From a virus: 35,513 bases of DNA. Position numbers and translations under genes: made by a program. Every line of letters starts with the position of its first letter. Positions within the stretch are counted from its first letter, which is position 1. Positions 25,674-35,513 of this stretch are shown here, piece after piece. The DNA is taken from positions 1-35,513 of IMG/VR virus record IMGVR_UViG_3300046557_000399. One strand, given 5' to 3'. The notes under the pieces were generated by a model that did no database searches, was not told the origin of the DNA, and was given only the letters and a program-made list of their open reading frames with translations.

Positions 25674-25768
25674 TCTGCACCCCCCTCCCTCCCGGGGGAG
25701 AGATCGCTCGCACGTGGTGGGGCCAACACGCCGGGTGCCTTGGCGGCGCCGGGCTTGCAAATGCAAAT

Positions 25769-25806
25769 GTGTGTGTATTATAAAAAATTTTTTTTACTAC
25801 ACACAC
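25769..25806. repeat. AT-rich central palindrome
   Basis: Arms GTGTGTGTA and TACACACAC flank AT-rich DNA with six A then eight T at the exact centre. This is by far the most AT-rich short stretch in a GC-rich neighbourhood, so it is a candidate DNA-unwinding element. On the minus strand it also contains a perfect TATAAT (25782 to 25777), but without a -35 box at the right distance. On the plus strand TTGCAA (25755) and TATAAA (25779) are 18 bp apart, so a promoter here cannot be excluded. Confidence 0.65.
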
Positions 25807-26294: not shown

Positions 26295-26459
26295 ATGCAG
26301 CCTATTCACCACGTTGCTATCTACTACTGGCACAAGTATATGACCACAGCAGACTCCACTCTACGTCGTGCTTATGGCCAGAAATACGCAGATGCTTCTA
26401 ATTGGAGTTCATACTATGACCAAAGCCGAACTGATCGCAGCTCTAGCCAATGTTCCTGA
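26295..26459 (+). CDS. Small protein of 54 residues
   Basis: ATG at 26295 preceded by GAGGTGCCAA, a leader almost repeated before the 26699 gene. The peptide has the aromatic, basic core IHHVAIYYWHKYMTT, then LRRAYGQKYADASNWSSYY, and a serine-rich tail. It is protein-like but unrecognised. Its last 44 bases overlap the next gene in another frame. Moderate doubt remains because of its length. Confidence 0.5.
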   Translation: MQPIHHVAIYYWHKYMTTADSTLRRAYGQKYADASNWSSYYDQSRTDRSSSQCS

Positions 26460-26625
26460 CGACGGCGAAATCCTTGTCAAACCCTACTCAGGCGAGGAGT
26501 TCGAGAAAGCACCCTGGCGCTATCAAACGCGAGAAGTCAAGAATGCATACTCAGCTAACGATGATCGCTACACTCAAAGCTCCGTACTCCTAATCGAACT
26601 CAGCGATATCAGCGATAGCCCCTAA
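26416..26625 (+). CDS. Small acidic hypothetical protein
   Basis: 69 residues, ATG at 26416 with GGAG ten bases upstream. MTKAELIAALANVPDDGEIL looks like the start of an alpha/beta protein. A strand LVKPYSGEEF and a C-terminal SVLLIELSDISD follow. The N-terminal T-K-A-E-L-x-x-x-L...D-x-x-I-x-V pattern is common among small phage proteins of unknown function. No partner can be proposed. Confidence 0.65.
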   Translation: MTKAELIAALANVPDDGEILVKPYSGEEFEKAPWRYQTREVKNAYSANDDRYTQSSVLLIELSDISDSP

Positions 26626-26631
26626 CTCCCA

Positions 26632-26662
26632 GGCCCCGGCGCAGCTCACCGCGTTCGGGGCC
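26632..26662 (+). terminator. GC hairpin after the 26416 gene (no U-tract)
   Basis: GGCCCCG (26632-26638) pairs with CGGGGCC (26656-26662), with a 17-nt loop, 7 bp after the stop codon. It could be a pause site, an mRNA-stabilising hairpin or a Rho-assisted terminator. Evidence for actual termination is lacking. Confidence 0.45.
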
Positions 26663-26698
26663 ACGGGCGTGCAAAGACCTCCAACCATTAGGTGTCAA

Positions 26699-26977
26699 AT
26701 GGCTGAAGACCTCAAGCAGACTCGTAGAGTGAAGGCTCTAGTCGTCGTCGCACTAGATTTCGATTGGACACCAGCAGAAGATGACAACTTCAACCCAGAG
26801 GCTGACGTCACTACAGACAAGATCGAAGATTACTTGCATCAATGGCTCACCAACGATTTCGAGTCACTAATACAAGAGTTCGGCTTCTCCGTCGACGATG
26901 TCACCTCACTGTACTTCGAAATCAAAACGCCCACGCCTTCCACTCCCACTTCCACTCCCACTCCCACTCTCGAGTAA
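26699..26977 (+). CDS. Acidic hypothetical protein with Thr/Pro tail
   Basis: 92 residues, ATG at 26699 after TTAGGTGTCAA. The domain VKALVVVALDFDWTPAED, TDKIEDYLHQWLTNDFESLI and VTSLYFEIK has alternating strand and helix. It is followed by a Thr/Pro repeat tail encoded by a CACTCC-type microsatellite (about 26935-26972). The tail length may vary between isolates by slippage. Function unknown. Confidence 0.68.
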   Translation: MAEDLKQTRRVKALVVVALDFDWTPAEDDNFNPEADVTTDKIEDYLHQWLTNDFESLIQEFGFSVDDVTSLYFEIKTPTPSTPTSTPTPTLE

Positions 26978-26984
26978 ACCTCTG

Positions 26985-27014
26985 GGCCAGTTCGCTGCAC
27001 ACCGCGAACTGGCC
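26985..27014 (+). terminator. Perfect 11-bp hairpin after the 26699 gene (no U-tract)
   Basis: GGCCAGTTCGC (26985-26995) and GCGAACTGGCC (27004-27014) with loop TGCACACC. It lies 7 bp after the stop codon. The stem is long and perfect but is followed by TACAGGCG rather than Ts, so it may stabilise the transcript end or mark RNA processing. Confidence 0.5.
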
Positions 27015-27038
27015 TACAGGCGTGAAAGGCAGGTGAAC

Positions 27039-27242
27039 ATGTCTATCCACAACACCGAACGACCTGACTTGTGCTACTGCATCTTCTGCCGCCGCAAACG
27101 CCTCTTAGCCCACTACGGTGCTAAGCCATCGCACGAAGCTAAAGCCAAGGACTTTCTCGTAATGAACACCAAACGCTCGATGTTCATCCTCGGTCCGCGG
27201 TCGCTTCTCACCGGCGAACGAAAGGTAGTAGCTCAACTCTGA
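27039..27242 (+). CDS. Small basic Cys-containing protein
   Basis: 67 residues, ATG at 27039 with AGGTG upstream. LCYCIFCRRKRLLAHYGAKP contains a C-x-C-x-x-C knuckle, possibly a half zinc site. The rest is basic (HEAKAKDFLVMNTKRS) and ends ERKVVAQL. It is followed 8 bp later by a strong terminator, so it probably closes a transcription unit. Unrecognised. Confidence 0.6.
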   Translation: MSIHNTERPDLCYCIFCRRKRLLAHYGAKPSHEAKAKDFLVMNTKRSMFILGPRSLLTGERKVVAQL

Positions 27243-27249
27243 ACTAAAG

Positions 27250-27282
27250 GAGCACAGCCCCCCAAAAGGGCTGTGCTCTTTT
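27250..27282 (+). terminator. Strong rho-independent terminator
   Basis: A perfect 11-bp stem GAGCACAGCCC / GGGCTGTGCTC with loop CCCAAAA and a TTTT tail. It separates the short hairpin-punctuated group (26295-27242) from the long operon beginning at 27304. The next gene's ribosome site AAAGGAG starts right after it. Confidence 0.9.
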
Positions 27283-27303
27283 GCTTCAAAGGAGATCGCT
27301 CCA

Positions 27304-27534
27304 ATGAGACTCTTCATCGTCGACTACACTCACTCCAACGGCCACCACGGCACTCGCGTAGTCCGCTCTCGCAACCACACCGCTCTCCGACACAAACTCT
27401 GGATGTGTTCATCCGCCCGCATCACCGAAGTCAAGCCCACCCGTGCCTGGCGCTGGAATCATCTCAAGTTCGAAGCAGTCTCACCTCGAACAGATTTAGT
27501 CGTTGAAGCTAAAGCGGAGCAAACCAATGCCTGA
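27304..27534 (+). CDS. Basic hypothetical protein
   Basis: 76 residues, ATG at 27304 preceded by AAAGGAGATCGCTCCA. MRLFIVDYTHSNGHHGTRVV and RSRNHTALRHKLWMCSSARI are basic and beta/helix in character, followed by AWRWNHLKFEAV. It is the first gene after the terminator, so it starts the long plus-strand operon. A nucleic-acid-binding role is possible given the charge, but unproved. Confidence 0.65.
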   Translation: MRLFIVDYTHSNGHHGTRVVRSRNHTALRHKLWMCSSARITEVKPTRAWRWNHLKFEAVSPRTDLVVEAKAEQTNA

Positions 27535-27748
27535 ACTACGCACCCCAAAGCAAGAGGAACTCGACACTTACGCCAACACTATCGCTCGACTCGAACCCGA
27601 AGTCGCAATGATCGACGCTGGCGCATACTACGCCTCCGCCGCCATCTCACTCAAGCGCATCGCCGACTCTCTCAATCAACTCACTATGGTTCAAGAGCAC
27701 CTCCTCGATCGGCTAGACAACATCAGCACTAACATCGTGAGGCGCTAA
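27527..27748 (+). CDS. Helical hypothetical protein
   Basis: 73 residues, starting at the ATG 27527 with GGAG eight bases upstream, overlapping the previous gene by 8 bp; an in-frame TTG at 27503 is less likely. The protein is mostly helix: QEELDTYANTIARLEPEVAM, YYASAAISLKRIADSLNQLT, MVQEHLLDRLDNISTNIV. This looks like an antiparallel coiled-coil. Unrecognised. Confidence 0.65.
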   Translation: MPELRTPKQEELDTYANTIARLEPEVAMIDAGAYYASAAISLKRIADSLNQLTMVQEHLLDRLDNISTNIVRR

Positions 27749-27960
27749 TGTCTTCCGGCTTCCAACTCAAGAAGAGCGAAGCAGATGCACTCACTAAGCT
27801 TCTACCTCTCCTCGATCACCTGAGCGCCACTCTAACAGAAGAGGAATTCGCCACACTCAACCTCCTACGGGCTAGACTCAACAATCCCAAGTACTACAAA
27901 CCAAGGACACCCTCCAATGCTATACATCGCAGACCTCTCTCATCACAACAGCCCGACTGA
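27748..27960 (+). CDS. Small helical protein
   Basis: 70 residues, ATG in TAATG overlap with the previous stop. Helices KKSEADALTKLLPLLDHLSA and TEEEFATLNLLRARLNNPKY. The last 15 residues overlap the lysozyme start in a different frame. Together with the two preceding genes it is a short run of small helical proteins. Function unknown. Confidence 0.6.
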   Translation: MSSGFQLKKSEADALTKLLPLLDHLSATLTEEEFATLNLLRARLNNPKYYKPRTPSNAIHRRPLSSQQPD

Positions 27961-28753
27961 CTTTTCCCAAGCCAAAGCCTGGGGAATTCACGGTATCATT
28001 CACAAGGCCACCGAAGGTCTCTCCAACACCGACCCTACCTACGCCTCTCGCCGCCAACTCGCACTAAACGCCAACCTCCTATGGGGCGCATACCACTTCT
28101 TCCGTCCATCAGACCCCATTAAGCAAGTCTCTCACTTCCTCTCTATTGCCTCTCCCGACGCCAACACCCTACTCGCACTTGACCACGAGGACTCCAACTG
28201 CTCCGCAGCCATGGCCATCACCTTCCTCAAGGAACTTGAGCAGCGCATCGGCCGCAAATGTCCACTCTACTCCGGTCACCTAATCAAGGAACAACTCCAA
28301 GATCAAGTCGACTCCTACCTACGCCAATGCCCACTCTGGCTCGCTCAATACGGCCCCACTGCCGTCCTACCCAACACTTGGAACGACTACTTCCTCTGGC
28401 AATTCACTGGCGACGGCCTCGGCCCAGGCCCTCACTCAGTCCCCGGCCTCGGAATCAACATCGACTTGAATCGCTACCAAGGGACAGAAGAACAACTCAG
28501 ACTCGACTGGACTTCCTCCTCCACCTCCACCTCCACCTCAATGCAAACCTCCTTCAATCAATGGCTCCAATCTTCACTCAACCTCTTCGGAGCTCACCTC
28601 CTAGTCGACGGCCGCTTCGGCCCAGTCACTCTCCTCGCTCTCCGCACTTATCAGGCCGAACAGAACCTCCAAGTCACTGGCCACTTCGACTCTCCAACTC
28701 TCAACTCACTTCTCACTGAACTCCAACATAGGATCACCACCTCCAATGCATAA
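27917..28753 (+). CDS. GH25 lysozyme with C-terminal peptidoglycan-binding domain
   Basis: 278 residues, ATG at 27917 with AAGGA upstream. The GH25 fold is complete: D6 in IADLSHHN, E33 (HKATEG), W/Y-H-F (57-61), the catalytic D89-H-E91 (LALDHED), YSGHLIKEQ, WLAQYG, and the C-terminal WQFTGDG/IDLNRYQG. A Ser/Thr linker (about 200-210) leads to a peptidoglycan-binding repeat (DGRFGPVTLLALRTYQAEQN, then GHFDSPTLNSLL). The enzyme cleaves the MurNAc-GlcNAc bond. No signal peptide is seen, so it needs a holin or acts from lysed cells. It is distinct from the GH108-like protein in the late operon. Confidence 0.92.
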   Translation: MLYIADLSHHNSPTDFSQAKAWGIHGIIHKATEGLSNTDPTYASRRQLALNANLLWGAYHFFRPSDPIKQVSHFLSIASPDANTLLALDHEDSNCSAAMAITFLKELEQRIGRKCPLYSGHLIKEQLQDQVDSYLRQCPLWLAQYGPTAVLPNTWNDYFLWQFTGDGLGPGPHSVPGLGINIDLNRYQGTEEQLRLDWTSSSTSTSTSMQTSFNQWLQSSLNLFGAHLLVDGRFGPVTLLALRTYQAEQNLQVTGHFDSPTLNSLLTELQHRITTSNA

Positions 28754-28991
28754 ACCACCTCCAATAAACTCCCATCTCCTCTATGGCTCAAAGCTCATAC
28801 CTACTTACATCGCAGACACTCCTGTCTTGGTCGTCTTCGGGCCAAAGCACATCAAGCGCATAGTCACTAACGATGATCAACTCCGCTTAATCTACCTCGA
28901 AGAGACCGAACTTCGTCAACTCGAAATACAACTCGTCGAACAGGAGGTACTTCAAGAGGCCGACTTAAGGTCAAGCACTCACCACGAGTAG
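28746..28991 (+). CDS. Small hypothetical protein
   Basis: 81 residues, ATG overlapping the lysozyme stop. LIPTYIADTPVLVVFGPKHI and RIVTNDDQLRLIYLEETEL are strand-rich, then a Glu/Gln-rich helix. Nothing recognisable. Its coupling to the lysozyme gene suggests shared expression rather than shared function. Confidence 0.55.
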   Translation: MHKPPPINSHLLYGSKLIPTYIADTPVLVVFGPKHIKRIVTNDDQLRLIYLEETELRQLEIQLVEQEVLQEADLRSSTHHE

Positions 28992-29065
28992 AACGAGCTC
29001 TGCGCTCTATGCGCTCAGCCGGGCAGCGCACAGACATTCCCAACCCCCGGCAAAAGGAGCCTACC

Positions 29066-29287
29066 ATGCCCTCTTACTCCTTCAAGAAGATAGTCGACTA
29101 CACTCCAGATGAACTCGAGTCCGCAATCAAGGCCTCTCTCCAACACTGCGGTGAACACGGCGGCCTCGATTTCTACATCCTACTCAACGGCGTCGACGCG
29201 TACTTCGAGAAGCGGAACCGCAAGCGCCAACTTGAGACAAAGGCCAACCCCTCAAAGGTCAACCCCCCATCCGGAGCTAGCTCGTAA
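29066..29287 (+). CDS. Small hypothetical protein
   Basis: 73 residues; ATG 29066 has AAAGGAG eight bases upstream, which decides against the in-frame start at 29009. FKKIVDYTPDELESAIKASL and GGLDFYILLNGVDAYFEKRN suggest a small alpha/beta domain, followed by a basic tail. The 75-bp gap before it holds a palindrome-like GCGCT stretch but no gene. Confidence 0.62.
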   Translation: MPSYSFKKIVDYTPDELESAIKASLQHCGEHGGLDFYILLNGVDAYFEKRNRKRQLETKANPSKVNPPSGASS

Positions 29288-29301
29288 AGGAGCCCCTAAA
29301 G

Positions 29302-29532
29302 ATGCCTTCTCGCCTGCCAAGCGTCACCCGCACTTCACGACCCGAGCCTCGCTGGCCTTGGCAGGCACCTACTTGCTCTGCCAACGTCGGTGAATTCACT
29401 CTCCGCTGGCGAAAGCCAGAGCAAGGCTCTCTCTGCACCAACCGCGGAATTATCTCCATCGACGGAGTTCACTTCTGCGAACGACACGCCGGCCGCTTCC
29501 TCCTCACTTGGCACTTGAAGAACGGAGTCTAA
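29302..29532 (+). CDS. Small Cys/His-containing protein
   Basis: 76 residues, ATG at 29302 after AAAGGAG (with a longer spacing). The core is PTCSANVGEFTLRWRKPEQG, SLCTNRGIISIDGVHFCERH. The four cysteine/histidine positions (C, C, C-x-x-H) look like a treble-clef or zinc-ribbon site. The pattern S-L-C-x-N-R-G...H-F-C-x-x-H recalls small phage zinc proteins. Function unknown. Confidence 0.6.
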   Translation: MPSRLPSVTRTSRPEPRWPWQAPTCSANVGEFTLRWRKPEQGSLCTNRGIISIDGVHFCERHAGRFLLTWHLKNGV

Positions 29533-29534
29533 TC

Positions 29535-29786
29535 ATGGCGCTCTCAATCTCACTCTTCGATCCCCAACTCACCTACTCCCATACCCTCCAATTCTCCGAC
29601 GGAGCCACTTGCGACACCCTCACCATCCAAGGCCACACTACTGACGGAGAGCCACTCACCCTCTCTTTAGACCTCCACCAACTCTCCATTCCCCACAGAG
29701 CTATACTCGCACAGCTCAACACTCCAAAGGACATCACAGCACATCTCCCAACCCTCGACCTCGCCATCGACGAGATTCCCTTCTGA
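29535..29786 (+). CDS. Small beta-rich protein
   Basis: 83 residues, ATG 29535 after GGAGTCTAATC. Strands LSISLFDPQLTYSHTLQFSD and TLTIQGHTTDGEPLTLSLDL suggest a small beta-sheet domain, followed by LHQLSIPHRAILAQLNTPK and an acidic end. It is probably a single-domain protein of unknown role. Confidence 0.6.
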   Translation: MALSISLFDPQLTYSHTLQFSDGATCDTLTIQGHTTDGEPLTLSLDLHQLSIPHRAILAQLNTPKDITAHLPTLDLAIDEIPF

Positions 29787-29798
29787 ACTCTATCACTC

Positions 29799-29838
29799 AC
29801 TGGAGTCTCTCACTGGAGTCTACCACTTACTGGAGTCT
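29799..29838 (+). repeat. Triplicated Shine-Dalgarno-containing repeat
   Basis: ACTGGAGTCT occurs three times, at 29799, 29812 and 29829. The last copy, with TACC, is the ribosome site for the gene at 29842. The same GGAGTCT core precedes the starts at 29535 and 33100. It may be a slippage or duplication product, or it may raise ribosome recruitment. Confidence 0.6.
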
Positions 29839-29841
29839 ACC

Positions 29842-30150
29842 ATGCAAGTCAATTGGCGTAGCATTTGGCTCTCCCTCTACCAACTCGAACGAAAGCACAT
29901 CACTCCACTTCAATGCCAACAGCACCTCCAATCCGCAGGCCTTGACCTAGAGAACTCCAACCTCCGAATAGTTGAAGTCCTGAATACTGGCTACTACACT
30001 ATGACCAAGGAGCTCCTACCATGTCCTCTTCCCTCACCATCACACACCCAACTCGAGGCGAGCTCGAAGTCGAATACGACATTGAATCTGCCGATCCCGA
30101 CGTCGGCATCGCCCATGCCTACGCCAACATCACCTCAGTTAGAGTTCTAG
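29842..30150 (+). CDS. Hypothetical protein with long out-of-frame overlap
   Basis: 102 residues, ATG 29842 with GGAGTCTACC upstream. The first half (VNWRSIWLSLYQLERKHITP, QCQQHLQSAGLDLENSNLRI) is well formed. The second half (Pro/Thr/Ser-rich) overlaps the next gene by 130 bp and may be only a by-product of that gene's C-rich sequence. The first gene may really be shorter than the frame allows, or a translated overlap. Its ribosome site supports it being made. Confidence 0.52.
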   Translation: MQVNWRSIWLSLYQLERKHITPLQCQQHLQSAGLDLENSNLRIVEVLNTGYYTMTKELLPCPLPSPSHTQLEASSKSNTTLNLPIPTSASPMPTPTSPQLEF

Positions 30151-30263
30151 GCGACAATGCTCAAGTCACTCTCACTATGAAGGAATGCGAATGGCTTCAA
30201 GAGAAATGCGATGAAGCCATCTACGACAACGAGGGAGACAACTACGATCTCGATCGCACCTAG
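30021..30263 (+). CDS. Acidic hypothetical protein
   Basis: 80 residues, ATG at 30021 with AAGGAGCTCCTACC upstream. SLTITHPTRGELEVEYDIES and VRVLGDNAQVTLTMKECEWL show a beta-rich domain, ending in an acidic helix with KCDEAIYDNEGD. It is confidently a gene because of its ribosome site and composition. No family is recognised. Confidence 0.65.
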   Translation: MSSSLTITHPTRGELEVEYDIESADPDVGIAHAYANITSVRVLGDNAQVTLTMKECEWLQEKCDEAIYDNEGDNYDLDRT

Positions 30264-30276
30264 AGGAACCGAGCAA

Positions 30277-30588
30277 ATGAAGGGCCTCGTCCTTGAAGTC
30301 CACGATTGCCGCTGCACTTGCGGCAACAAATGGACCAACTCACGAGTGATCGCAATGGACTCCGACGGCGGCTACGGAGGTACTCCAAGTCCAAGAGACG
30401 AGGCGCACCTCCCACTCGCTTACATCTTCTCAACCCCTCGTGATCACTCCCTCTGCTTCCGCTGCGGCCCAATCGGCTACCGCCCCAAGCTCCAAGTCCC
30501 AGAGACACCTCCACTCCCACCCCCAACCCCAGAACCAGACTTCGATCCTCTTGCAGTAATAGATGAACTTCGCATGGAGAAACTCTAA
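30277..30588 (+). CDS. Zinc-ribbon-like protein
   Basis: 103 residues; ATG 30277 with GAGGA 11 bases upstream rather than the in-frame start at 30211. The N-terminus V-H-D-C-R-C-T-C-G-N-K-W and a second C-x-x-C (SLCFRCGP) near residue 60 form a zinc-ribbon core. A Pro-rich linker (about 72-90) and an acidic C-terminal helix follow. This may be an adapter or anti-host factor, but the sequence does not say which. Confidence 0.62.
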   Translation: MKGLVLEVHDCRCTCGNKWTNSRVIAMDSDGGYGGTPSPRDEAHLPLAYIFSTPRDHSLCFRCGPIGYRPKLQVPETPPLPPPTPEPDFDPLAVIDELRMEKL

Positions 30589-30905
30589 TGCGCAAAGGCA
30601 GCAGGAAGAAACTCCTACCCAAACCCAATCATCCAATCCAAGGCATCTCTTGGAGAGCGAAGCAACTCTTCGAACAGGAATACGCCGCTTGGGATGCTCT
30701 CCCTGCTGACTTCAAAACCCAACTCGACTTGGAACGATATCACGAACCTCCACTCGCCCTCGGTATCAAGCAAACACTCCGCAACAATCCTCACTTCAAC
30801 ATCTACCTTCTCCCCCGCCTCTACTTAATCGAATCGAAGAAGATGGCAGAACGTGATCTAAAGCTCGCCACTACTCCGAAAGAACCCAAGGACCCGACAA
30901 AATGA
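30588..30905 (+). CDS. Basic hypothetical protein
   Basis: 105 residues, TAATG overlap. A basic N-terminus (RKGSRKKLLPKPNHPIQG) leads to SWRAKQLFEQEYAAWDALPA, LDLERYHEPPLALGIKQTLR and helices to the end. It is likely a small helical, nucleic-acid-associated protein. Not recognised. Confidence 0.6.
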   Translation: MRKGSRKKLLPKPNHPIQGISWRAKQLFEQEYAAWDALPADFKTQLDLERYHEPPLALGIKQTLRNNPHFNIYLLPRLYLIESKKMAERDLKLATTPKEPKDPTK

Positions 30906-31099
30906 TAACTGGACACACAATACTCCTCCTCCTCCTCTTCATCCTTTCCCTCGCTGCCTTCGCTCAATGCCTAGTCCTCCAAAGTCCATTCATCGCTGCA
31001 CTCTTCTTCTTCTTCACCCTCTGGCTCTTCATCGAGCTAGTCCTCGACTTCCACTACCTCGCTACTCGCACTCCAAAGGATGATCATGACTCGCACTAA
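30902..31099 (+). CDS. Two-helix membrane protein
   Basis: 65 residues, ATGA overlap with the previous gene. Two hydrophobic segments (about residues 5-25 and 30-51) are separated by a very short turn, with an acidic-His tail outside. It could be a second holin-like or anti-holin protein, or a superinfection-exclusion factor. The sequence alone does not decide. Confidence 0.65.
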   Translation: MITGHTILLLLLFILSLAAFAQCLVLQSPFIAALFFFFTLWLFIELVLDFHYLATRTPKDDHDSH

Positions 31100-31439
31100 T
31101 AGACTCCAAACCCCTGCTGACCTAGAAGCTGATCAACTCTCCCGACGCTTCCTTGAGATCTTCAAGGCCGGCTCTCTCGGCGAACTCAAACTCGGCCCAC
31201 TTCCAAAGGCCACCTGCACCTCTCTCCGCCACCGCCTCTACCGTTTCCGTCGAAAGATGCACGAAGTCCACCATCCCGACCTCATGGCCGCGGAAGCTTG
31301 CACGATCGAGATAAAGCTCGAACCAGATGGAATCAACTTCCACCTCCTAATCTACCCCACTCTAATGCAGCTCGAAACTGCCTTAAAGAATGCAGGCCTT
31401 TCCGCCGGCGAACCCCCTCCTCTAGATGAAGAGGGATAG
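31086..31439 (+). CDS. Hypothetical alpha/beta protein
   Basis: 117 residues; ATG 31086 is five bases after AAAGGA, better spaced than the in-frame ATG at 31080, and overlaps the membrane gene. ADLEADQLSRRFLEIFKAGS, LRHRLYRFRRKMHEVHHPDL, then CTIEIKLEPDGINFHLLIYP. The helix-helix-strand order and the positively charged helix suggest nucleic-acid binding. Unrecognised. Confidence 0.6.
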   Translation: MTRTNRLQTPADLEADQLSRRFLEIFKAGSLGELKLGPLPKATCTSLRHRLYRFRRKMHEVHHPDLMAAEACTIEIKLEPDGINFHLLIYPTLMQLETALKNAGLSAGEPPPLDEEG

Positions 31440-31641
31440 CAGGTGTTGATCACTTGGGGCCATTTGCTCGCGAAAATTTGTAGCGCTCAGCCCCTTGCCC
31501 TATGCCCCAACATATGCCATACTCCCCTCTCGCGGCCCACCCAATCCCCGCAGGCTGGATGTTCCGCGAAGCCCCAGGGGACGGATCCTACGCAGTCCGG
31601 ATCCCCTGGGGTCCCACTACCACCTCCGAGGCCACCAATCA
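31440..31641. other. Gap with hairpin, probably non-coding
   Basis: Holds a 10-bp-stem hairpin (CCCCAGGGGA pairing with TCCCCTGGGG, about 31574-31612). It also holds TTGGGGC (31454-31460) and GCCCCAA (31504-31510), reminiscent of the 30-nt hairpin family but wrongly spaced. A 96-codon frame beginning at 31514 lacks a ribosome site and I do not count it as a gene. Confidence 0.45.
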
Positions 31642-31887
31642 ATGGCTAAGAACCACACCGCCACCGTACCCTGGAAGGTCCACGTACCTCAAGATCTCGC
31701 ACTCCGAATTGAATCTCGCTTCTACGATTCAGAGAAGCGCAAGCCTCGTTACGGGCAGCGCAACGCTCTCATCGTCGCACTTCTCCAACAGTGGGACCTG
31801 AAAACAGACCTTCCCGACTGGTATAATAAGCCCGCCCCCGCTCTCACTCCCCTAATCCTACCAAACCTAGAGGGAACCGAAGCCTAA
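31642..31887 (+). CDS. Ribbon-helix-helix-like small DNA-binding protein
   Basis: 81 residues, ATG at 31642. V-P-W-K-V-H-V-P-Q-D-L-A-L-R-I-E forms a strand then a helix, followed by K-P-R-Y-G-Q-R-N-A-L-I-V-A-L-L-Q-Q-W: the strand-helix-helix order of a phage RHH/CopG-like fold. The C-terminal part is Pro-rich. Such proteins are typically dimeric repressors; the operator palindromes in this window are possible targets but there is no proof. Confidence 0.62.
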   Translation: MAKNHTATVPWKVHVPQDLALRIESRFYDSEKRKPRYGQRNALIVALLQQWDLKTDLPDWYNKPAPALTPLILPNLEGTEA

Positions 31888-32210
31888 TGTCAGTCGAACG
31901 TCCTGCACTTGAGATCACCGAATCGGACCCGATCAAGCTCGACAATCGGCTCCGTGAACTACAAGCTGCACAGCTCCGCCGCAAAATCCAAGGCCTTCAG
32001 ATTCCCGAAGGGACTTCGCAAGGCGAGGCCGACCGCCTCCGCCGTGAGTGGAATTCGAGCTACGCTCTCGAAATTAAGGAAATGATCGGAATCACCATGA
32101 AGCTCCGGCGCACCTCAGCCGGCCCCGCCGCTAAAGGCGGCAAACGCGCCAAGCGCGCTCCCCTAGACATGGATGCAGTGATCATGGACATGGGGTTAGA
32201 AAAAGCATGA
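31887..32210 (+). CDS. Basic helical hypothetical protein
   Basis: 107 residues, TAATG overlap with the RHH-like gene. LDNRLRELQAAQLRRKIQGL, EADRLRREWNSSYALEIKEM, then a basic Lys/Arg-rich C-terminus (AAKGGKRAKRAPLDMDAVIM). Paired with the preceding RHH-like gene it may be an accessory protein, but there is no evidence of a toxin-antitoxin pair beyond size and coupling. Confidence 0.6.
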   Translation: MSVERPALEITESDPIKLDNRLRELQAAQLRRKIQGLQIPEGTSQGEADRLRREWNSSYALEIKEMIGITMKLRRTSAGPAAKGGKRAKRAPLDMDAVIMDMGLEKA

Positions 32211-32265
32211 ACACCAAAACCTATTGGAGTAGGTCTCGCGTTGCGGCGGTCATCCTGCTCCGATC

Positions 32266-32334
32266 GTCCAGGAGGAAACTAACCCTCCTGGACGCAATTT
32301 CCTTCACTGGCCACGGGGGGAGCAGGGCCAGTGA
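32266..32334 (+). promoter_or_regulatory. Two hairpins in the leader of the outer-membrane protein gene
   Basis: Hairpin 1: GTCCAGGAGG (32266-32275) with CCTCCTGGAC (32284-32293), perfect 10 bp. Hairpin 2: TCACTGGCC (32304-32312) with GGCCAGTGA (32326-32334), 9 bp, loop with GGGAGCAG. The loop can instead pair with CTGCTCC upstream (32255) or downstream (32346), both in CTGCTCCGAT repeats. So the leader could switch between structures. It could also be an intergenic terminator pair, although no U-tract follows. Confidence 0.5.
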
Positions 32335-32371
32335 CTGTATCTTCACTGCTCCGATAAGTAGGAGAAGCAAC

Positions 32372-33040
32372 ATGAAGACCCTCTACTCGAGCCTAGCAGC
32401 ACTGGCACTCTCTGCCATGCTCGCCACCCCCGCCGATGCCACTGGCGTCACTGGCGGTCGCTGCTACGTTGAAGCCAGCGTTAGCGCCGGCGCCGCCTTC
32501 AACACTCTCTCCATCGCAAAAGAGGACTTCGATCTCGGAGCTCAAGGCTACGGAGTTGCACCGGGTATCGGCTGCGACCTACTCCTGAATCCTTTCTTCA
32601 TCGGGATTCTCTATCGCTACGACTTCACCTCTATCAAGGGCTCAGCTGCTGATCTCACCTCCTTCAATCTCACTTCCCTCTCCACTCCAGCAGTACGCCT
32701 CGGAGTCAACATCACTCCCTCTACTGCACTCTACGGCATCGCGGGCTACACTTTCGCTCGTCAGAAAGATGAGAAGTTCGTTCTCGCCTCAAGCTCCTTC
32801 TCCGGCTACATGGTCGGTGGAGGCCTCGAACAACAACTCAATCCCAACCTCTCAATCAAATTTGAATACAACTTCAATCGCTTCGATCACGAAGACCTCA
32901 CCTTCCTCGACAACGAGGTGAAGATTCCAGCATCGCAAGGCCCCGACATTCACGTCTTCCGCATCGGCCTCGCCTACACCTGGGGTGGTACCTCCTACTC
33001 TCAGCCCAACTTCAATACCACTTACCGCCCCTTGAAGTAG
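32372..33040 (+). CDS. Outer-membrane beta-barrel protein (Omp25/OmpA-like)
   Basis: 222 residues; ATG 32372 with AGGAG ten bases upstream. A Sec signal peptide (1-23: basic start, hydrophobic LAALALSAML core, A-D-A cut site) is followed by a barrel with alternating strands (YVEASVSAGAAF, FFIGILYRYDF, TPAVRLGVNI, SFSGYMVGGGLEQQL, SIKFEYNFNRFDH, FRIGLAYTW). The C-terminal residue is Lys after a short tail, not the usual aromatic, so BAM recognition may differ. The long frame begins at 32207, but the signal peptide fixes the true start. An outer-membrane protein in a phage could alter host surface: adsorption, exclusion of other phages, or envelope stress. Host origin is likely. Confidence 0.85.
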   Translation: MKTLYSSLAALALSAMLATPADATGVTGGRCYVEASVSAGAAFNTLSIAKEDFDLGAQGYGVAPGIGCDLLLNPFFIGILYRYDFTSIKGSAADLTSFNLTSLSTPAVRLGVNITPSTALYGIAGYTFARQKDEKFVLASSSFSGYMVGGGLEQQLNPNLSIKFEYNFNRFDHEDLTFLDNEVKIPASQGPDIHVFRIGLAYTWGGTSYSQPNFNTTYRPLK

Positions 33041-33055
33041 TTCTAAAGACCCCAA

Positions 33056-33079
33056 GGAGGCAGGCTCAGGTCTGCCTCC
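33056..33079 (+). terminator. Hairpin after the outer-membrane protein gene (no U-tract)
   Basis: GGAGGCAG (33056-33063) with CTGCCTCC (33072-33079), loop GCTCAGGT, starting 15 bp after the stop codon. The next gene's ribosome site (GGAGTCTCA) comes just after. It may limit read-through or stabilise the upstream message. Confidence 0.5.
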
Positions 33080-33099
33080 CACCGCAACTCGGAGTCTCA

Positions 33100-34107
33100 A
33101 TGACCTCAATCGCAGACCTCCAACTCCCTCACTATCTCGACTCCTCCTGGCTTACCGCCTGGCGCGCCTGCAAACGGAAACACTTCTGGTCCGCCCTTAT
33201 AGGAATCTATCCCTCCGGCCAATCTGTACATCTAATCGCCGGCGCTGCAATCGCTTCAGGCATGGAATATGTTAGAAAGGCAGTCTTTGACCCACTCAAT
33301 TCCGGAACTCGCTTCTCTCATGAGGAGCTTATGGAATTCGCCATGTCCGGCTTCGTACAGGAATGGGGCTCCTACACTGCTCCTCAAGGTCACGCGAAAT
33401 CGTTCCACAATACTTTCGCCGCACTGGACGACTACATTCGACGATACAATCCCTACGATGACGTGGTCCAGCCCTTCCGCCGCCCCAACGGCGAAGCCGC
33501 GATCGAATACAAATTCTCAATACCTCTCGACATCAAACACCCCGACTCCGGAGATCCAATCTGCTTCGTCGGTAGATTCGATATGCTCGGAGTCTACGAC
33601 CACCCTGGAGGCCAGATCAATGTCCTCGTTGATGAAAAGTCAACTGCCTCAATCGGCTCTTACTGGGCTTCTCAGTGGGCGCTACGAGGCCAATTTCTTG
33701 GCTACTGTTGGGCCTGCCAGCAACAAGGAATCTACGTTTCCACTGCGTGCGTCCGCGGAATCGCAATTCAAAAGACCCAGTTCGTCTGCGCCACCGCTCT
33801 TCCCGAATACCCACAATGGCTCATCGACCGCTGGTATCGAGAGATGTACCGTGACATGGAAGGAATCGTACGAGCTTACGTGGCCATCAAAAGACGAGTC
33901 CAAACATCTGAAGAAGAACTTGATCAAGCTCTGGAATATTTTCTACCCCTCAATCTTGGTGACGCGTGCTCATCCTACGGCGGCTGCGCGTTTCAAACAC
34001 TTTGCGAAACAAATGACCCTTGGCGCTACACCTCCAACTACATAAGGCATCGTTGGGACCCACTGAAGAAGCAACCAGTAGAGGAAATCGCAAATGAAAG
34101 CATTTGA
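33100..34107 (+). CDS. Cas4/AddB-like PD-(D/E)XK nuclease with putative Fe-S cysteines
   Basis: 335 residues, ATG after GGAGTCTCA. SSWLTAWRACKRKHFWSALI holds C24. The nuclease core is G-R-F-D161, V-L-V-D178-E179-K180 and Q198-x-x-G-Y with its helix. The C-terminus carries C290-x5-C296-x5-C302. One Cys before plus three after the nuclease core is the Cas4/AddB/Dna2 arrangement for a 4Fe-4S cluster. The spacing of the middle pair differs from the usual C-x2-C. Family knowledge: such enzymes trim DNA ends in recombination or replication. In a phage a recombination or end-processing role is most likely; no cas genes or CRISPR lie in this window. It overlaps the next gene by 14 bp. Confidence 0.85.
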   Translation: MTSIADLQLPHYLDSSWLTAWRACKRKHFWSALIGIYPSGQSVHLIAGAAIASGMEYVRKAVFDPLNSGTRFSHEELMEFAMSGFVQEWGSYTAPQGHAKSFHNTFAALDDYIRRYNPYDDVVQPFRRPNGEAAIEYKFSIPLDIKHPDSGDPICFVGRFDMLGVYDHPGGQINVLVDEKSTASIGSYWASQWALRGQFLGYCWACQQQGIYVSTACVRGIAIQKTQFVCATALPEYPQWLIDRWYREMYRDMEGIVRAYVAIKRRVQTSEEELDQALEYFLPLNLGDACSSYGGCAFQTLCETNDPWRYTSNYIRHRWDPLKKQPVEEIANESI

Positions 34108-35407: not shown

Positions 35408-35513
35408 ATGGTTCAACAGAAGACTCCCACTCCCACTACGCCCACTTCCCCTCTCAACCCCCCTGTTAAGGTGGCTGGAGTCATCTCCTCTGGTCCCAAC
35501 GTCCCCACCCACG
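35408..35513 (+). CDS. Start of an unidentified gene (runs off the window)
   Basis: ATG 35408 opens a frame that is still open at the right edge. The available 35 residues are low-complexity: VQQKTPTPTTPTSPLNPP, then VKVAGVISSGPNVPTH. The Pro/Thr start resembles a disordered N-terminal tail. No function can be given. Confidence 0.5.
   Translation, partial: MVQQKTPTPTTPTSPLNPPVKVAGVISSGPNVPTH

Follow-up and report, generated by a model that had tools for sequence, protein, structure and literature searches.

Genomic Setting of the Leader

The DNA analyzed here, in the following called the window, is one strand of the virus record IMGVR_UViG_3300046557_000399 (positions 1 to 35,513; 35513 bases). 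The genes of its left arm are on the minus strand and include those for terminase, portal/head-tail and major head proteins, and the right arm carries on the plus strand an endolysin gene, many small genes and a gene for an exonuclease-like protein. The closest named records to the capsid protein are those of Microcystis phage Mel-JY34 (42%) and Vibrio phage VS-ABTNL-3 (40%). When viral contigs were searched with the capsid protein two were found, G001 from the same phage and G002 with 50% identity; the genome contigs gave no match. G001 (IMGVR_UViG_3300046791_000259) agrees with window 1–26190 at 99.94–99.97%, and its far end matches window 35433–35513 (81 bp). These end matches suggest a circular or permuted map of approximately 48.3 kb. 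G001 does not contain the leader stretch, and the leader and the outer-membrane protein described below are absent from both G001 and G002.

The outer-membrane gene (32372–33040, plus strand) encodes a 222-aa beta-barrel protein (Pfam OMP_b-brl, E 2.7e-13) with a signal peptide, as judged by eye. Its Shine-Dalgarno sequence AGGAG (32360–32364, plus strand) lies 7 nt before the ATG at 32372. The end of the gene upstream (31887–32210, plus strand) directly adjoins the spacer between the two genes, which is 161 nt long (32211–32371, plus strand) and is here called the leader. From ATG 32207 a reading frame runs without a stop across the leader and into the outer-membrane gene. This frame was set aside as a coding candidate by its codon score of −0.36 per codon, which resembles that of out-of-frame sequence; in-frame 165-nt windows of nine of the ten reference genes score at least 0.10, where it should be noted that the same ten genes served for training and testing and that the frame used for one of them, gene 29067, was off by one base. 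The leader is thus probably non-coding.

The Three Hairpins

The initial annotation had described two stable hairpins in the leader, which were both recovered and are here designated P1 and P2. It had missed a third one, P0 (32223–32264, plus strand), in which ATTGGAGTAGG (32223–32233) pairs with CCTGCTCCGAT (32254–32264) in 11 bp, including two G-U pairs, with −21.5 kcal/mol for the isolated hairpin. P0 adjoins P1 (32265–32294, plus strand), which has the arms CGTCCAGGAGG (32265–32275) and CCTCCTGGACG (32284–32294), 11 bp, and the 8-nt loop AAACTAAC. P2 (32304–32334, plus strand), formed from TCACTGGCC (32304–32312) and GGCCAGTGA (32326–32334), has 9 bp, a 13-nt loop and −15.0 kcal/mol when the loop is left open, and would be the first stem of a possible pseudoknot. 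Its loop contains GGAGCAG (32319–32325, plus strand), which, as had been noticed before, is complementary to the CTGCTCC within both copies of the decamer CTGCTCCGAT. Copy 1 (32255–32264, plus strand) lies inside P0 and is paired there; copy 2 (32346–32355, plus strand) has the Shine-Dalgarno region as its partner in nested folds and would have the P2 loop in the possible pseudoknot. Across the window the decamer has just these two exact copies.

The MFE fold of 32211–32371 consists of P0, P1 and P2, together with a small hairpin that covers the ribosome site. Its −68.8 kcal/mol compares with a mean of −49.5 for 200 dinucleotide shuffles, all of which it beats (z −4.92; −5.23 in a second computation). 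In a sliding fold scan (884 windows, 24 shuffles each) there were 14 windows with z below −4, and plus-strand windows lying off-register over the leader scored between −1.4 and −3.4. The fold of the leader is therefore strong yet not unique within the window. Likewise, 10-nt direct repeats are rare in shuffled leaders (0.36%), yet 43 of the 884 real 161-nt windows have one.

The lowest z-score of the scan was that of a plus-strand window at 25761 (−6.9), within which lies an AT-rich hairpin, GTGTGTGTATT...ACTACACACAC, at 25769–25806, among few convincing genes. This region is possibly an origin or terminator region.

Hairpins at Other Gene Junctions

Hairpins in the right arm are not confined to the leader. 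On the plus strand there are hairpins at 26985–27014 (11 bp, loop 8), at 27250–27278 (11 bp, loop 7, then TTTTGC), at 31572–31611 (10 bp, loop 20), which is crossed by a 99-aa open frame (31502–31801), and, directly after the outer-membrane gene, at 33056–33079 (8 bp, loop 8). A weaker one at 26632–26662 (plus strand; 7 bp, loop 17) is reached by 6.7% of shuffles. The hairpins at 26632, 26985 and 27250, P0 and the hairpin at 33056 begin 6, 7, 7, 12, and 15 nt, respectively, past a stop codon, and the one at 31572 begins 132 nt past its upstream stop.

WC stems of at least 8 bp were found in five of eight tested spacers, some of which are longer than 70 nt, vs. none of 60 coding 70-nt segments of the arm, a sample that did not cover the hairpin at 30191–30220; three of the eight spacers have no such stem, and the longer gaps 29288–29534 and 30906–31079, which appear to contain small genes, were not among the eight. 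In the window as a whole there are 21 hairpins with a WC stem of at least 8 bp, vs. 2–14 in 20 shuffles (mean 6.75), which is about threefold. Fourteen of the 21 lie outside the listed genes, which cover 82% of the window, a count that is rough because the left-arm gene list comprises long open frames only. Within 26416–34107, of which 85% is listed genes, six of seven hairpins are outside genes, the exception being that at 30191–30220; six more of the 21 sit within left-arm genes. With three hairpins and a z of about −5, the leader exceeds the other junctions in complexity. In two annotated relatives the bias is slight, 2 of 12 and 3 of 12 hairpins being intergenic vs. 6.7% and 9.9% of the sequence. 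Because these intergenic hairpins are so few, the habit of placing hairpins at junctions is not clearly a family trait.

Another spacer of the right arm has repeats: ACTGGAGTCT is present three times in near-tandem at window 29787–29841, directly before gene 29842. This spacer has no significant hairpin.

Searches for Relatives

A DNA search of phage records with the leader gave no match, and neither did searches with the upstream gene or with the exact P1 stem pattern. A 16-nt P2 pattern was found in 14 viral stretches, none of which has CACTGGCC in the 60 nt before it or CTGCTCC in the 60 nt after it. Of the 13 stretches with the double-decamer pattern, several are evident repeat arrays and none has an exact GGAGCAG between the copies. 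For the outer-membrane protein there was no relative in viral contigs, genome contigs or phage records, and plasmids yielded one weak partial match. All these searches rely on exact words or peptides, which diverged relatives may escape. No match of the window to Rfam 15, riboswitches included, was above the gathering score; the best weak match over 32150–32450 is to ar14 on the minus strand (13.4 bits vs. a gathering score of 58.8, E 2.3).

Gene 31887 has weak matches only (E 0.012 and above); for gene 31642, eight contigs have a match (E up to 0.001) close to the exonuclease. Seven loci with a homologue of gene 31642 were read, and in each of them other genes fill the slot that precedes the exonuclease; the outer-membrane protein had no match across 104 loci. 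PF13505 is present in one of 84 related records, far from the exonuclease slot and behind a 50-nt leader (read by eye). The 84 records are 80 related exonuclease loci (80 retained out of 454 confirmed), G002 and three phage records, and many of them are short fragments, so that the absence of PF13505 carries little weight. Since other genes fill the slot in relatives and PF13505 is found in one of 84 records, the outer-membrane gene and its leader are best read, from these sequence comparisons, as cargo particular to this phage, and the gene appears to have been acquired recently.

Competing Pairings and the Ribosome Site

The initial annotation proposed that the leader may be an RNA switch in which the P2 loop pairs alternatively with either decamer. 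The complementarities on which the proposal was built are real: GGAGCAG can form 7 bp with either copy (−11.3 kcal/mol). With copy 2 the seven contiguous pairs would give an H-type pseudoknot whose loop lengths are feasible (S1 9 bp, S2 7 bp, L1 6, L2 0, L3 11 nt) and which would end 7 nt upstream of AGGAG. A WC match of at least 7 nt to the P2 loop is found in 0.44% of shuffled downstream flanks and in 6.2% of upstream ones, and both together in none of 5000 shuffles. Thus, at a single site the downstream match is improbable by chance. It should be noted, however, that the shuffle tests of the loop match and of the repeat were made after the match had been seen and that the window has 35 hairpins of the scanned type per strand, and the low chance of the loop match is for these reasons suggestive only. 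Among the 35 plus-strand hairpins scanned, five entries, two of which are the leader element itself, have a flank match to the loop of at least 7 nt.

In MFE folds of nine stretches P1 was present in all eight that contain it, P0 in five of six and P2 in three of nine, and copy 2 was paired with the Shine-Dalgarno region in all nine. In the fold of 32211–32391 neither P0 nor P2 is left; copy 1 is paired with the loop, and 32379–32390, the first codons, pair with the 5′ arm of P0. We had considered copy 1 to be beyond the reach of the loop since P0 holds it, a view that is overturned by this fold and by the similar costs of freeing the two copies. In five stretches that extend beyond 32406 the partner of the right arm of P2 is CACTGGC at 32400–32406, in the signal-peptide region. 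Forcing P2 to form costs 1.4 kcal/mol in 32211–32391 and 3.1 in the other of the two stretches tested.

On the plus strand of window 32305–32455 there are four copies of CACTGGC (32305, 32400, 32440, and 32449) and its complement in P2, which is half of the ten matches in the window, and the copy at 32400 displaces the left arm of P2 in several folds.

Freeing the loop and copy 2 costs 8.2–11.0 kcal/mol (six flank choices) and freeing the loop and copy 1 8.1–11.3 (5.0 if the RNA starts at 32265), which is to be set against −11.3 for the helix. A pseudoknot carries a penalty of approximately 9 kcal/mol. Because of the cost of freeing the arms and of this penalty, the copy 2 pseudoknot would be break-even or unfavorable, where the energies are rough. 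The refolding is not exceptional. The alternative folds exist on paper, but in a control with 588 stretches of 161 nt from both strands, each extended by 20 nt, 68 retained as few of their pairs as the leader or fewer (leader 22%, median 74%), and when the extension was 40, 60, or 90 nt long, 53% of the leader's pairs were kept, the medians being 66, 60, and 55%. The refolding of the leader is thus somewhat strong at one length and near the median at the longer ones.

The burial of the ribosome site is also average. In three stretches alike 4.3 kcal/mol is needed to open AGGAG, and in these 6, 5, and 7 of 15 other arm genes with a recognizable site (motifs of 3–5 nt) require more, so that in comparison with these 15 genes no unusual occlusion of the Shine-Dalgarno sequence was found. 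When the loop and copy 2 are freed, joint Shine-Dalgarno openness rises from at most 0.001 to 0.007–0.019; even then the site is predicted to be mostly closed.

A regulatory leader with competing folds would have two states, selected by a protein, by an RNA or by how fast transcription proceeds. In one P0, P1, and P2 form, and the pseudoknot of the P2 loop with copy 2 may free the Shine-Dalgarno sequence, which copy 2 otherwise pairs in every stretch folded; in the other copy 1 is the partner of the loop, and the first codons are that of the 5′ arm of P0. That the loop can reach copy 1, in a fold 1.4 kcal/mol better than the one with P2 forced, raises the standing of this explanation slightly, and the refolding control keeps the change small. 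With the costly arms, the ordinary ribosome site, the comparable loop matches of other hairpins and no homologue in the searches run, we regard it as unlikely. The more specific proposal of a phage RNA switch that times the outer-membrane protein, with the P2 loop swapping between copy 1, its own stem and copy 2 during transcription until the copy 2 pseudoknot exposes the ribosome site, is quite doubtful. If it were true, the virus could set the timing of a change of the host surface.

Possible Terminator and Promoter Signals

The leader could also act in transcription, P1 being a weak or conditional terminator that curbs read-through into the cargo gene. P1 was picked up in a loose scan for terminator-like sites (11 pairs, 8 of them G-C) with the partly U-rich tail CAATTTCCTT, it is the most robust element of the folds, and in the same arm the hairpin at 27250–27278 is followed by its TTTTGC. 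The U-tract of P1 is, however, interrupted; terminator-like sites are not above chance in number (7 found vs. 10.7 expected); and among the stretches folded none breaks P1, so that there is no evident antiterminator. A clean U-tract is absent after both P1 and the hairpin at 33056. Such transcriptional punctuation is therefore rather improbable. Neither strand of the leader has a sigma-70-like site, and the nearest one upstream on the plus strand is at 31798–31827. An element of the other strand or of the DNA, either an antisense small RNA, as the non-significant minus-strand match to the alphaproteobacterial sRNA family ar14 might hint, or direct-repeat operators formed by the two copies of CTGCTCCGAT, 91 bp apart and present in exactly this number, is very unlikely in view of an ar14 score far under the threshold, the lack of a sigma-70-like site on both strands and the G-U pairs of P0, which suit an RNA better than a DNA palindrome.

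Interpretation and Comparison With Known Systems

Intergenic hairpins in phage operons function as terminators, as RNase III sites or as 3′ stabilizers. The hairpins at the junctions of the arm, those of the leader included, are like these in having 8–11 bp, in lying between co-oriented genes and, several of them, right after a stop codon. The leader differs in that three hairpins are in one spacer and that one loop is complementary to two other segments of it. A literature search on RNase III sites found no paper, and one on phage-encoded outer-membrane proteins found nothing related.

Since similar hairpins lie at nearby junctions, the leader is most likely ordinary. With slightly better than an even chance, it consists of hairpins placed at a gene junction, next to an outer-membrane cargo gene that occupies a variable slot in a compact phage operon. 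The initial annotation had named simple intergenic hairpins as the alternative to a switch, and given the similar hairpins at other junctions this alternative fits somewhat better. P0 and P1, which follow the stop codon of the upstream gene, would most likely shield or delimit the 3′ end of that gene's message, be it as a barrier to 3′ exonucleases, as a processing signal or as a weak terminator, and it is in message ends or processing that we infer the role of the hairpins to lie. P2 would be an additional hairpin of the same junction kind, the outer-membrane gene would be translated from its own Shine-Dalgarno site, and the complementarity of the P2 loop to both decamers may be incidental or minor in effect. 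Junction hairpins cover most of the observations; the competing folds around the P2 loop are the most interesting remainder. If there is no switch, the leader adds one more example of structured junctions between the genes of a compact phage operon; if one operates, it would be an unusual translational control by a phage before a surface-protein gene.

Pseudoknots are known from translational operators. For example, the mRNA of gene 32 of phages T4, T2, and RB69 has an operator in which a pseudoknot, situated 67 nt before the start, precedes an A+U-rich tract covering the ribosome-binding site; this operator is bound by the gene's own product, a ssDNA-binding protein (PMC3014915). The present leader is like this system in belonging to a phage and in that a two-stem pseudoknot may form ahead of the ribosome-binding site, and unlike it in that the gene encodes an outer-membrane protein of the OMP_b-brl type rather than a ssDNA-binding protein and that an A+U-rich tract was not seen. 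In the rpsO mRNA of Escherichia coli, the gene product S15 autoregulates its synthesis via a pseudoknot operator (PMC3014915). The pseudoknot would be the common feature; the leader, however, is without an apparent autoregulator, and its pairing is putative.

The outer-membrane gene itself resembles the morons, or cargo genes, of phages in being absent from the same slot of relatives and in having hairpins on both sides (PMC6469090). The absence was observed in each of the seven loci read. It may be unlike a moron in that no sigma-70-like promoter was detected in its leader.

Possible Surface Proteins in Related Phages

The relative G006 has (L119, 1393–2022) a gene for another PF13505 outer-membrane protein, preceded by a short leader; this protein shares 26% identity over 107 residues with that of the window. 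Upstream of the exonuclease of the relative G002 there are genes for two proteins (L005, 12320–12991 and 13051–13602) that look secreted, as judged by eye, and have similar C-termini (VPGPIVGAG.PGL, then a basic tail); these are possibly other surface cargo.
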